Assembly: GCA_003023275.1 (NCBI GenBank)
Contig: PXTX01000039.1
Span: 1 to 33,264, forward strand
Reading direction: 5' to 3'
Length of the DNA stretch: 33,264 bases
DNA from: Bacteroidetes bacterium SW_4_67_19
Lineage (GTDB): Bacteria; Bacteroidota; Rhodothermia; Rhodothermales; Salinibacteraceae
Under the pieces are notes generated by a model, which was not told where the DNA came from, ran no database searches, and saw nothing but the letters and a program-made list of their open reading frames with translations. How positions within the stretch are numbered: the stretch's first letter is position 1; each line of letters begins with the position of its first letter. This document shows positions 487 to 24,600 of this stretch, one piece after another. Position numbers and translations under genes: made by a program.

Positions 487-1017
487 TCAAGCCCGCTGCT
501 TCTGGAAAAACGCCTGGAGCAGCCCGGCGGCGCGCTCCTCCTCCAGCCCGCTCGTGACTTCGACGCGATGGTTGAGGCGCTCGTCCTGCGGAATCTGATA
601 GAGCGTAGAGGCAGCGCCGGCCTTTTCGTCGAAGGCGCCGAAGACGAGGCGTCCCAGCCGCGCCTGCACGAGCGCGCCGGCGCACATTGGGCACGGCTCG
701 AGGGTGACGTAGAGCGTGCAGTCCGTCAGGCGGCGACGCCCGAGCGTTTCGCTGGCGGCGGTGAGCGCCAGCATCTCGGCGTGCGCGGTCGGGTCGTCGA
801 GCGCTTCGACGCGGTTCTGGCCGCGCCCCACGAGACGTCCGTCACTGCTTTGCCCGGGGCTTCTACCGTTTTTGCTATCGCCGTCGCTGCCGCTCTCGTC
901 GTGCTGCACGACGACGGCGCCGACGGGCACCTCGCCGGCCTCGAAGGCGCGCTCGGCTTCGCGCAGCGCCTTCTTCATCCAGCGGCGGTCCGGTTCGGTC
1001 AGGGCGTCGAGGCTCAC
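487..1017 (-). CDS. tadA: tRNA-specific adenosine deaminase (TadA)
   Basis: MKKALREAERAFEAGEVPVGAVVV...DPTAHAEMLAL...LYVTLEPCPMCAGALVQARLGRLVFGAFDEKAGA: HAE and PCxxC deaminase motifs. GTG at 1017 is a plausible start; the ORF continues upstream without a stop into the arginine deiminase frame. Confidence 0.9.
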   Translation of the reverse strand: MSLDALTEPDRRWMKKALREAERAFEAGEVPVGAVVVQHDESGSDGDSKNGRSPGQSSDGRLVGRGQNRVEALDDPTAHAEMLALTAASETLGRRRLTDCTLYVTLEPCPMCAGALVQARLGRLVFGAFDEKAGAASTLYQIPQDERLNHRVEVTSGLEEERAAGLLQAFFQKQRA

Positions 1018-2448
1018 GCGGTGCGTTGCGGTTGCACTCCAAGAGTACTTCCCCCGCGAGGGGATGACCTGTCGGCCCCTCCCTCCGGTCGGGGCGCACC
1101 CCAAGAGTACTTCCTCGCTGGCGCTCGGGGCGCGGGTTCGGGGTTTGGAGTTCGGCGGGGGTCGGCGAAGGCAAGCGCCCCGTCGGCGGGCCACTGCTCC
1201 GCCGTCCGTGGTCCGCTTGAGGGCAATTTTTTCATCGGAGGACGGGACAAAGCCCGTTTCCTCATGGTATTCCAGAAAGCTGCGCACGCTGGCGATGCGG
1301 TATCCGCGCTTCTGGAGCTCGGCGAAGGTGCGGCGGTTGCGCTCGTAGCCGACCACCACGCCGGGCGCGATGGCGAAGACGTTCGAGCCGTCGGTCCATT
1401 GCTCGCGCGCCTGGTGCAGCCGCTCCGCTCCGCCGCAGGGGATGAAGTCGATCTCGTGGTCGATCACGTCTTGCAGCACGCAGCGCAGGTTCGGGCGCAT
1501 GTCCGTCTCGAAGCGGCCGGCCGTGCCGGTGGGCGTGAGATGGACGACGTACCCGAAGCCCGCGCGTTCCAGCAGCGGCGGATACACCACGCACTCGCCC
1601 GGGGAGGCGAAGGTGAGCACCGTATCGAGGTGCATGCAGGAGCGCTGCTGGGGAATCTCGACGGCGAGGATGTGCTCGACGGGCGTCTGGGCGAAGAGCG
1701 CGTGCGCGGCGGCCATGACGCCGCCGAAGGAGGTGCGCTGCGAGTGCCCGATAAGCACGACGTTCGGATGCGGTATGAGCACGTCACCGCCTTCGAGCGT
1801 GACCCCCTCGGGAAGCTCGATGAGGCGGTCGTCGCCGAGGCGGTCGAACGCTGGATGATGGTGCAGCACGGTGCGCAGCAGGACGTCCTCGCGCGAGCGA
1901 ACGGCCTGCGCCGTACGTCCCAGCACGAGGTGGTCGTGCACGGTAGCCGCGAGGTCGCGCGTGAAGAAGAGGTTCGGCAGCGGCGGCATCTCGACCGGCA
2001 GTTCGGTGTGGCCGGTGAGGGCGAAGGCCAGCAGGTCGCGGGGCGGGAGGCGGTGCAGGTCGTCTTCGACGGCCGCCAGGTTGCGTTCCGATTCGGTGCG
2101 GCAGAGCTGCTCGATGAAGCCCGCGCGCGCCGCCTCCTGCTCGAACGTCTCCGCCAGCAGCGTCCGCAGTTGCATCACCACGTCGTCGCGCCCGGTGACC
2201 ATGCGAAAGAGCGCGCACATCAATTCGTGTTCCCGCCGCGCCGTGCCGGTGAACAGGATATCCTCGAAAAGCAACGCCTCGCGGTTTTCCGGCGAGACGA
2301 GGTCCATCTCGGCGCCCGGCGTGTGGACGAGCACGCGGTGCAACGGGGCCGTCTCGGAGGTGACGTGCGCGCCGACGGGGGCGTGAGCGGCGTCGTGAGC
2401 GGCGTCGTCGGCGTCGGCGGTTGGTGCAGGGGCGTCGAGCGAAGGCAC
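1018..2448 (-). CDS. Arginine deiminase/amidinotransferase family protein, C-terminus apparently replaced by repeat DNA; no stop before tadA
   Basis: VLVHTPGAEMDLVSPEN, LPNLFFTRD, EGVTLEGGDVLIP, CMHLDTVLT, YERNRRTFAELQKRGYRI are deiminase-family motifs. Recognisable homology ends at about 'FVPSSDEKIALK' (~1215). GTG at 2448 is a candidate start; the exact start is uncertain. Confidence 0.75.
1031..1116 (-). repeat. GC-rich palindromic element, copy 1 (core flanked by direct AAGAGTACTT modules)
   Basis: AAGAGTACTT at 1041-1050 and 1103-1112 (62-bp spacing). Core 1049-1097 matches 21439-21487 (inverted) at 49/49 bases. Internal hairpins CCCC-GCGA-GGGG and GCCCC...GGGGC. Confidence 0.9.
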
Positions 2449-2555
2449 GGAAGCGGGGTGGGACGGAAGCGGAAGGCATCTTCTCTCGTAGGAGTTATAC
2501 CGTTTCGATCTGTTGGTTTCGCAATGTTGGATGGCCGGATGCTGCTTCCTCCATA

Positions 2556-2587
2556 AACCTTCCAGGTTTTCGAAGACCTGGAGGGGT
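2556..2587. repeat. REP-like palindrome AACCTTCCAGGT-TTTCGAAG-ACCTGGAGGGGTT
   Basis: Perfect inner arms CCAGGT/ACCTGG, extending with one mismatch or bulge to AACC...GGTT; lies in the 3' region of the Omp85 gene. Confidence 0.65.
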
Positions 2588-2643
2588 TCCATACACACGC
2601 ACTGGCAACATGTGCCTTCGGAAGCGGCGCGAGAACACCAGAT

Positions 2644-11504: not shown

Positions 11505-11589
11505 CGTTCCGACCGGCGACTGGCGATTGTCGGTTGGCGATTGGACAGCGGATCGAGAGGCTGCCGTCTGCCGCGTGTCGTCCGCCGTC
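11505..11589. repeat. 7-nt-phased degenerate array abutting the DUF493 stop codon
   Basis: Minus strand after TAG: GACGGCG GACGACA CGCGGCA GACGGCA GCCTCTC GATCCGC TGTCCAA TCGCCAA CCGACAA TCGCCAG TCGCCGG. Confidence 0.75.
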
Positions 11590-21438: not shown

Positions 21439-21487
21439 GCGCCCCGACCGGAGGGAGGGGCCGACAGGTCATCCCCTCGCGGGGGAA
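21439..21487 (+). repeat. Palindromic element core, inverted relative to 1049-1097
   Basis: Exact 49/49 reverse-complement match to 1049-1097. Confidence 0.95.
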
Positions 21488-21619: not shown

Positions 21620-24600
21620 GTGTTGCGTGATGCGTGTTGCACCCCAAGAGTACTTCCCCCGCGAGCCGAGCCGACGACCCTCGATTTCGCTCCCGGCATC
21701 ACCGCCATCGTTGGCCCCAACGGCTGCGGCAAATCCAACATCGTCGACGCCGTGCGCTGGGCCATCGGCGAGCAGCGGCCCACCGCGCTGCGCTCCGAGA
21801 CGATGGACGACGTCATCTTCAACGGCACCTCCGAGCGCAAACCGCTCGGCATGGCCGAGGTCGAACTGACGGTGGAGAACAACCGCGGCGTCCTGCCCAC
21901 CGAGTACAGCGAGGTCGCGCTGGGGCGTCGCCTCTTCCAGGACGGCACCAGCGAATACCTGCTCAACCAGACGGAATGCCGCCTGAAGGACATCCGCGAC
22001 CTCTTCATGGACACCGGCATGGGGGCGGACGCCTACTCCGTCATCGAGCGGGGCATGATCGACGACATCCTTTCGGACAACACCGAGGAGCGGCGTCGCC
22101 TCTTCGAGGAAGCCGCCGGCATCACCCGCTACAAGCGCCGTCGCCGCCAGGCGCTCCGCAAGCTCGACAACACGCAGCAGGACCTCGACCGCGTGCGCGA
22201 CCTCACCGGCGAGGTCAAAAAGAAAGTGCGCCGTCTGAAGCGCCAGGCCGAGCGCGCCGAACAGCACCGCGAGCTTTCGACCGAGCTGCACCGCAAGGAG
22301 CGCGCCCTGGCGGAGGCGGAGTACGTGCGCCTCGCCGAGCGCCGCGACGTGCTGGCCTCCGAGGTGGAGGCGCTCGAGGAGCGGGCCGAGGCGCTGGGGG
22401 CGGAGCAGTCCGAGGCCGAAGAGCGCCTCGAAACCTTGCGCGAGACGCTGGCCGAGCGTGAAAGCGGGCTGGGCGACGAACGCGAAGCGCTCGACGCCGC
22501 GCGCGACCGCGTGCGCCGCCTCGAAGGGGAGCAGCGTCTGGCAAGCGAACGCCTCGAACAGGCCCGCCGCGACCGCAAGCGCCTGCGCCGCGAGGCCGAG
22601 CGCGACGCCGACCGCCGCGACGATCTCCAGCAAAAACAGGAGCGTCTGGAAAACGAACTCGAAGCCGCCGTCCCCGAGCGCGACGAGGCCGAAGCGGACC
22701 TCGAAGCGGCCAAGGAGAAGCGCCAGTCGGCCCGCGCCGCCGCCGAGGACAAGCGCGAGGCGGTGCGCGAGCTTCGCCAAGAAGAGGAGGAGCTGAGCGA
22801 GCGCCGCGCCGAGGAGCGCAGCCGCCGCGACCGCCGCACCAGCCGCCTCGAAACGCTCGAAGACGAACAGCGCCGCGCCTACGAACGCCTCGACCGGCTC
22901 GACGAGCGCGCTGACCAACTCGACGAGCGCGTCGCCGAGGCCGAGTCTTCTCAGGAAAAAGCCGCCGCCGAGGTCGAAGACGCCCGGAAGGCCCTCCGCT
23001 CCGCCGAGGCGGACCACACCGAGCGCGAAGCGGCCCTTGACGACGCCACCGAGGCGCTCGAAGACCTGCGCCGCCGCCGCGAGGCCGCCCGCGCCGAGGT
23101 GGATCTGCTCGAAAGCCTCGTTTCCAGCTACGACGAGCACTCCGGCGCCGTGCAGTTTCTGGCCGAAGAAGGCCTCACGGGCGAGCAAGCGGCGGAGGAC
23201 TTCCGCACCGTCGCCGACGTGCTGGCCGCCGGCGAGGAGCACCGCGCCGCCCTGGCCGCTGCCTTGGGCGAATGGGCCGCCTGCCCGGTCGCAGCCACGC
23301 GCGCCGAGGCCCGCCGTGCCGTCGCCCGCCTGCGCGAGCACGGCAAGGGGCAGGCCACCGTCGTCGTCCTCGACCGCCTCCAGAACGGCACGCCCTCAAA
23401 CGGCCCCGCCGCCGGTGCGCCTTCCGGCGCGCAGCCGCTCCGCCCCGTCGTGCGCCCGCTCGCCGAGACGTATGCCCCGCTCGCCGACGCGCTGCTCGCG
23501 GGCGTCTTTCTGGCCGACTCGCTCGACGAGGCCGAGCGTCTGTCCGACGAGCACGGGCCGCCGGCGCGCTTCGTGACGCCCGGCGGCGAATGGGCGGGCG
23601 GCCCCGGCCTCCTCCACGGCGGCAGCGAGAGCGAAGGCGGCTCCGCCGCCGCCTCGCGCCTGGGGCATCGTGAGCAGCTCGAGGAGCGCCGCCGCGAGCT
23701 GGACGAGTTGACCGGCCAGATCGAGGCGCAGGAGGCGCGCGTCCGCGAGGCACAGGAGGCGCTCGACGAGGTCCCGCTCCAGCGCCGACGGGAGGCGCTG
23801 CGCCAGGCCGAAGGGCGCCAGGCCGAAGCCGCCGAAGAGGCGCGTCGCCTCGCCCACGAGCGCGAGACGCTCGACACGCAGCAGTCCGAAACCGCCGACC
23901 GCCTCGACGCCCTCGAAGACGAACTCGACGAAGGCCGCACCGCGCTGGAACGCCTCCGGGCCGACGCCGAGACGACCGAGGAGCGCCGCCAGGCCTTGAG
24001 CGAAGAGCGCGAGGCCGCCGAGGAAGCGCTCGAAGAGGCCGAGGCCGACGCCCGCGCGGCGCAGGAGCGCTTCGGCGAGGCGCGCGTCGCGGCCGTCGAG
24101 GCGCGCAGCCGCTGCGAGTCGCTTCAGCAGAGCCGCCGGCAGGCCGCCGAGCGCCTCGAGGAGATCGAAGAGCGCCAGGAGGAACGCACCGAAGAACAGG
24201 CCGATCTGGAAGATACCATAGAAGAGGCCGAAGCGCAGCAGGCCACCCTCCAGGACGACATCGAAGACGCCCGCGCCGACCGCGTCCGCCGCTCCGATGC
24301 GCTCGAAGACGCGCGCGAGACGTTCGAGGAGGTCAAAAGCGCTGCCTCCGAGGCCGAAAACGAGTTGCGCGAGTTGCGCCAGAAGCGTGAAGACGTGATG
24401 CGCCGCGAGAGCGAGCAGAGCGTGCGCCTCGCCGAGGTGAAAACGCGCCTGGGCGACCTCGTCGAGAGCACCGCCGAGGACTTCGACGGCCTGCACCTGC
24501 CCGACGTCGCGGACGAACCCGCCGACGACTTCGACGAAGACGCCACGCGCGAGGAAGTCAAAACATTGCGCAAGAAGCTGCGCAAGCTGGGCGACGTGAA

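Follow-up and report, generated by a model that had tools for sequence, protein, structure and literature searches.

The question raised by this locus is why an arginine deiminase (ADI, ArcA) and TadA should share one open reading frame. We analyzed a whole stretch of 33,264 nucleotides from Bacteroidetes bacterium SW_4_67_19, hereafter the window, which corresponds to the entire contig C39. On its minus strand, one frame of 703 codons runs without a stop through an ADI body and a complete TadA. One would wonder whether such a frame encodes a bifunctional enzyme or whether it is what remains of a damaged gene pair. The source species is represented by one genome, which is fragmentary (1.86 Mb in 140 contigs, 62% complete). 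The comparison set consisted of 34 distinct ADI relatives, two of which (G001 and G002) belong to the same genus and many others to the same family or order; the closest ADI matches in the named collection come from metagenome-assembled genomes of Rhodothermales and other Bacteroidetes. As argued below, the frame most likely represents a broken gene, or a sequencing artefact, and not a new designed enzyme.

The ADI body matches the PF02274 profile with 230 bits (cut-off 22.8), the best stretch reaching position 357 of 377, and Foldseek matches it to the structures 4bof, 1lxy and 2aci with E-values of at most 1e-21. It keeps 102 of the 105 body residues that are otherwise invariant. The first 60-70 codons of the frame have no ADI counterpart and contain another repeated palindrome. 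Since the similarity to ADI begins only around residue 64, the GTG at 2598 is, judged from the alignment, not the true ADI start, and the predicted protein is of about 635 residues. The palindrome upstream of the ADI (AACCTTCCAGGTTTTCGAAGACCTGGAGGGGTT, in the region 2540-2600) represents another repeat family, its translation matching four other places of the genome.

The other extremity of the deiminase is different. All 34 relatives, G001 and G002 included, possess an intact GTELSRGRGGPRCMTLP end with the nucleophilic cysteine: EKVAI is followed by LxGTELSRGRGGPRCMTLPxAR and then by the stop codon. The two same-genus proteins, which are 71-74% identical to the window ADI, thus have the canonical end. 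In the window ADI, the C-terminal RGRGGPRCMTLP block carrying the nucleophilic cysteine (G-G-P-R-C-M-T-L-P) is absent, and the C-terminal block accounts for 16 of the 19 otherwise invariant residues that the protein has lost. The alignment of an intact same-genus homologue with deiminases of known structure extends across RGRGGPRCM; among these PDB matches are a C406A arginine deiminase and an enzyme covalently bound to citrulline. AlphaFold2 predicts a folded C-terminus for the intact same-genus homologue, with two strands (E389-393 and E409-414) flanking a short helix (H397-400). For the window protein, both the ADI and TadA are predicted to be well folded, and Foldseek matched the two folds separately; residues 392-459 of the modelled stretch have a pLDDT of about 30 and no secondary structure. 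Local DNA alignment, with strict and with permissive scoring, detected no remnant of the native end in the segment following EKIALK beyond what shuffles give. Because of this lack of a native remnant, and because the segment is disordered where the end of the intact homologue is folded, we read the ADI end as missing, not diverged. A search for the lost C-terminus elsewhere in the 62%-complete genome gave no match, which is weak evidence given the 37-residue query. Provided that the sequence is correct, the deiminase very probably lacks enzymatic activity. The original prediction had described the 703-aa frame joining the deiminase to TadA, a deiminase homology that stops at EKIALK and an unrecognizable cysteine block, and all three are confirmed here, the last by the alignment and the structure prediction of the C-terminus that it had suggested. 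We found neither a close relative sharing the same end nor, by profile alignment, an intact cysteine motif.

TadA itself matches PF14437 with 119 bits and NCBIfam NF008113 with 147 bits, just under the cut-off of 150. Its zinc-site motifs TAHAEML and EPCPMCAGA are present, and the best Foldseek TadA structures reach target-normalised TM-scores of 0.82-0.92. Apart from a guanine-deaminase-like paralogue, identified by eye, the assembled genome gave no further TadA-type match. At about 830-905, TadA displays an extra low-complexity stretch of about 20 residues (HDESGSDGDSKNGRSPGQSSD) that is absent in relatives. We considered this insert (826-915) as a second insertion element and rejected the idea, as it is not repeated in the genome.

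The two genes are old neighbours. In 20 of the 34 relatives, tadA follows the ADI gene on the same strand, and in 14 the stop and start codons overlap by 1 or 4 nt (at loci including L037 and L085-L097); G001 and G002 have lost the adjacency. This conserved arcA-tadA pair would link arginine breakdown with the editing of an arginine tRNA. That an element brought the two genes together can thus be rejected, the adjacency being ancestral. Since the TadA start lies within a GTGA, and relatives display an ATGA overlap, the old ADI stop probably survives there out of frame. In G007 (genus g6), the ADI-tadA spacer holds repeats, a heptad tract and a 36-nt unit, after an intact ADI stop, and in G021 a heptad tract directly follows an intact arcA stop. 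Repeats in this spacer are therefore not unusual, and by themselves they do not cost the gene its end.

What lies between the two domains can be described precisely. The lysine codon of EKIALK ends at 1216 and the GTG of TadA occupies 1017-1015, which leaves exactly 198 nt. This segment has no stop codon in any of the three frames, so that the in-frame joining of ADI to TadA is a 1-in-3 accident of its length modulo three. No ADI-TadA fusion was found among the 34 relatives. If the sequence is right, translation of TadA would start at its own GTG, or TadA would be the C-terminal domain of a fusion protein. On the gene strand, the segment contains in succession a heptad tract, about 40 nt without other copies, another heptad tract, a 36-nt unit and a 62-nt unit, the latter being separated by 18 nt from GTGAGC (Table 1). 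Over 1117-1215, the 7-nt self-match is 0.49 as compared with 0.34 in shuffles, none of 2000 of which reaches 0.49. Taken alone, the subregion 1130-1165 remains phased (P=0.002), and 1185-1215 gives only P=0.058. The pattern of the tract next to the ADI, GGACCACGGAC, occurs seven times in the genome, the reversed control pattern not once; its other sites are apparently intergenic, one directly after a stop codon. The palindromic region consists of two head-to-tail units and has 53 matches in the genome. About 20 near-complete copies of the 62-nt unit exist, and their stem shows compensatory C-G/G-C changes: 95.8% of cells are paired and both sides are changed in 8 cells, a level reached by none of 500 shuffles and by no slid control. 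At the two inner positions of the stem, 99 of the 108 cases examined across the retrieved loci are paired (G-C, C-G and A-T). A composite of the 62-nt unit, the 36-nt unit and GGGTTTGGAGTT recurs, 92% identical, on contig C59, where it lies between ribosomal protein genes. The RNA fold of the whole 198 nt is no more stable than shuffles (z -0.73), and an Rfam scan of the window at gathering thresholds gave no match. As these repeat classes occur between genes elsewhere, the junction is largely made of the ordinary spacer repeats of this genome. Other 7-nt phased tracts, unrelated in sequence (CACGCAT, GCGATTT, CCCAAGT and others), are found at L010, L017, L025, L031 and at 11510 of the window. 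Heptad repeats would be a general habit of this genome.

Table 1. Features of the joined frame and of the second element copy in the window.
Feature	Position	Strand	Basis
Open frame of 703 aa: truncated ADI, 66-codon repeat-derived linker, TadA	487..2598	-	ORF and domain searches
tadA, complete, HAE and PCPMC motifs, GTG start	487..1017	-	profile and motif matches
TGA sharing GTGA with the TadA GTG; probably the old ADI stop, no longer in the ADI frame	1014..1016	-	ATGA overlap in relatives
Segment replacing the last ~26 or more ADI codons, 198 nt	1018..1215	-	no likeness to native C-terminus beyond shuffles
62-nt hairpin unit (36-nt unit plus 26-27-nt insert)	1036..1097	-	genome copies, stem covariation
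36-nt hairpin unit (GCGCCCCGAGCGCCAGCGAGGAAGTACTCTTGGGGT), family-wide, often tandem at ~35-nt period	1098..1133	-	repeat matches
Heptad tract AACTCCA-AACCCCG-AACCCGC	1132..1152	-	7-nt phase test
Heptad tract GGACCAC-GGACGGC-GGAGCAG	1194..1214	-	directly after the Lys codon
ADI (ArcA) body, homologous to relatives as far as EKIALK	1216..2409	-	HMM alignment from residue 64
Partial 62-nt unit (initial 49 nt, 100% identical)	21439..21487	+	second window copy
Inverted second half of the unit, abutting the SMC gene	21639..21665	-	SMC from 21665 (+)

The two heptad tracts announced by the original prediction, at 1194-1214 and at about 1130-1160, are both present, and the palindromic element that it had placed at 1031-1116 is resolved into two units spanning 1036-1133. 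Its further proposal that the element itself fused the genes is not borne out, in view of their ancestral neighbourhood, the segment open in all frames and the 1-in-3 join. The idea that the element replaced the deiminase C-terminus holds in part: the end is gone, repeat material stands in its place and the frame enters TadA, but the breakpoint falls at the heptad tract (1215), some 80 nt from the palindromic element.

Most of the element copies that we examined sit between genes that, by inspection, look complete. In GlnRS (L110, G000:C9), a unit adds about 23 residues in frame; the alignment with G003 and G009 splits exactly around the insert, their coordinates adjoining, and at this site G002 carries a shorter unit. 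In a TolB-like protein (L122-L124), a unit is found in frame in all three genomes of the genus. On the basis of these two genes, the repeat family appears to be tolerated inside coding frames. Units related to the 36-nt one, sometimes in tandem at about 35 nt, exist in other genera of the family. Some of these tandem arrays start at the 3' ends of pdxH (RLAP-stop; L059, L065 and L071) and lysS (LRPE; L061 and L063), where the beginning of the unit matches the TGCGCCCTGA that belongs to the gene itself, which suggests that units may target or grow from gene ends. At L028 (G000:C56), the frame of an MlaE-like permease runs C-terminally into a divergent copy of the element (VGSALQEHFYHKGMTRRGPF...). 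No consistent target-site duplication was seen.

A parallel can be drawn with the Rickettsia palindromic elements (RPE) and the other small bacterial mobile repeats that occur as in-frame fusions with genes (for a review, see PMC2229807). Like RPE, the window family is a short hairpin repeat dispersed in many copies; most of these lie between genes, some lie in frame within conserved genes, and the open frames give rise to fusions. It differs by its sequence and host lineage, by its frequently tandem 36-nt and 62-nt sub-units, and possibly by the lack of a TA target duplication and of terminal inverted repeats. Moreover, unlike the neutral insertion of RPE, the window copy goes with the loss of a gene end. 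The family also resembles REP/BIME sequences, which are imperfect hairpins of 20-60 nt, intergenic, in tandem or grouped. In contrast to REP/BIME with their RAYT partner, no Y1 transposase (PF01797, Y1_Tnp) was matched in the 62%-complete genome, and copies are also present inside genes. As for the heptads, TAACTGA direct repeats have been described between genes in Beggiatoaceae, Cyanobacteria and some Bacteroidetes (PMC4679880). The tracts reported here are likewise seven-base phased direct repeats located between genes; unlike that single fixed heptamer preceding gene starts, they comprise several heptads without relation to one another (GGACCAC, AAACCCC), arranged in short and imperfect runs at the ends of genes. 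The hairpin family of this Rhodothermales family is apparently uncatalogued.

How, then, should the junction be explained? It is highly improbable that the C-terminus is the native end of an unusual, diverged ADI subfamily. A profile built from the 34 relatives continues weakly past EKIALK, through DGGAVARRRG, but it gains only 4 bits, which about 12% of codon- or base-shuffled linkers equal, and the two same-genus relatives have kept the canonical end. We give just as little credit to a rebuilt C-terminus that would keep the enzyme active. A cysteine does lie at the same distance, 15 residues after the lysine (GACLRRP for PRCMTLP), with C-x-x-x-P common to both; of the 16 invariant residues of the C-terminus almost none is left, 23% of codon shuffles reach the in-register profile score and the AlphaFold2 segment is disordered. 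With a P of about 0.03 for the offset, a level of coincidence, we rejected the rescue of the catalytic cysteine. A bifunctional protein, in which a selected, non-catalytic and arginine-binding ADI-like domain would be fused to TadA, for example to tie the wobble editing of tRNA-Arg(ACG) to arginine supply, is improbable too. The frame is open through both domains, which are predicted to fold, the body is conserved at a normal rate and the operon pairing is conserved across the order. On the other hand, relatives have no such fusion, the linker consists of repeats without a stop in any frame and the recency of the event would explain the conservation equally well. The stronger version, a real and selected fusion in which the dead deiminase serves as an arginine sensor tethered to TadA so that wobble editing responds to arginine, seems more improbable still; if so, two genes overlapping in an operon would have become, by repeat insertion, a single regulatory fusion protein.

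A more serious competitor, which we regard as a real possibility though not as the probable one, is an artefact of assembly or whole-genome amplification: the true arcA would be intact and followed by the repeats and tadA, a piece of arcA, and one of SMC at 21.6 kb, having been lost or rearranged beside the hairpin repeats in the course of either step. Both element copies of the window indeed adjoin a truncated conserved gene. The second copy consists of two half units, inverted and 150 nt apart, and the SMC gene next to it is short of 14-15 N-terminal residues, MYLxxLxLxGFKSF, which each of the seven matching relatives possesses. Such inverted halves with a deletion belong to the class that made up over 85% of the rearrangements in a study of multiple displacement amplification (PMC1855051), and the inversion or deletion at the SMC hairpin could be either biological or technical. 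The genome is in pieces, with gaps at repeats: on contig C80, a scaffold gap (N) lies immediately beside an element copy, and contig C25 begins inside another. Purifying selection on the ADI body is also normal, with a dN/dS of 0.21-0.26 against 0.18 for the intact pair G001/G002, and Tajima relative-rate tests of the body against intact relatives were not significant, so that there is no relaxation. The loss is therefore either very recent or an artefact. Several points plead against the latter. The ADI breakpoint has no long shared word, and a simple k-mer jump does not explain it; the order and orientation of ADI and tadA are ancestral; the spacer composite and its closest counterpart elsewhere are 8% apart; and the genes beside the other copies examined look complete.

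With confidence little above even, we favor the view that arcA has recently lost its 3' end, that repeats now occupy the place, and that the ADI is catalytically dead and TadA functional. According to this proposal, an ancestral Rhodothermales arcA-tadA pair would have lost the last ~26 or more codons of arcA, including that of the nucleophilic cysteine, possibly by illegitimate recombination as repeats entered the spacer, an event that we suppose to be recent. In the assembly, a mosaic of about 200 nt of interspersed intergenic repeats, heptads and two hairpin units, stands there and, being free of stops, lets the truncated ADI read on through a disordered linker of 66 residues into TadA in the predicted translation. 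The ADI would be dead, and TadA would function as a fusion domain or from its own start. The sharp loss of homology after EKIALK, where 34 of 34 relatives continue, argues for this proposal; the unrelaxed ADI body, the single genome of the species and the SMC truncation at the other copy, which suggests a technical cause, argue against it. The fusion is thus best read as a by-product of the disappearance of a gene end where the spacer is filled with repeats and poor in stops.

For annotation, a check of the reads should precede any description of this product as an active arginine deiminase or as a natural bifunctional enzyme. If the locus is real, it would show how a gene end may erode in the company of interspersed intergenic repeats and how, such repeats being free of stops in this GC-rich genome, a translationally coupled operon pair can become one frame. 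It also points to a hairpin repeat family with members in frame within conserved genes, as is seen for the Rickettsia palindromic elements.
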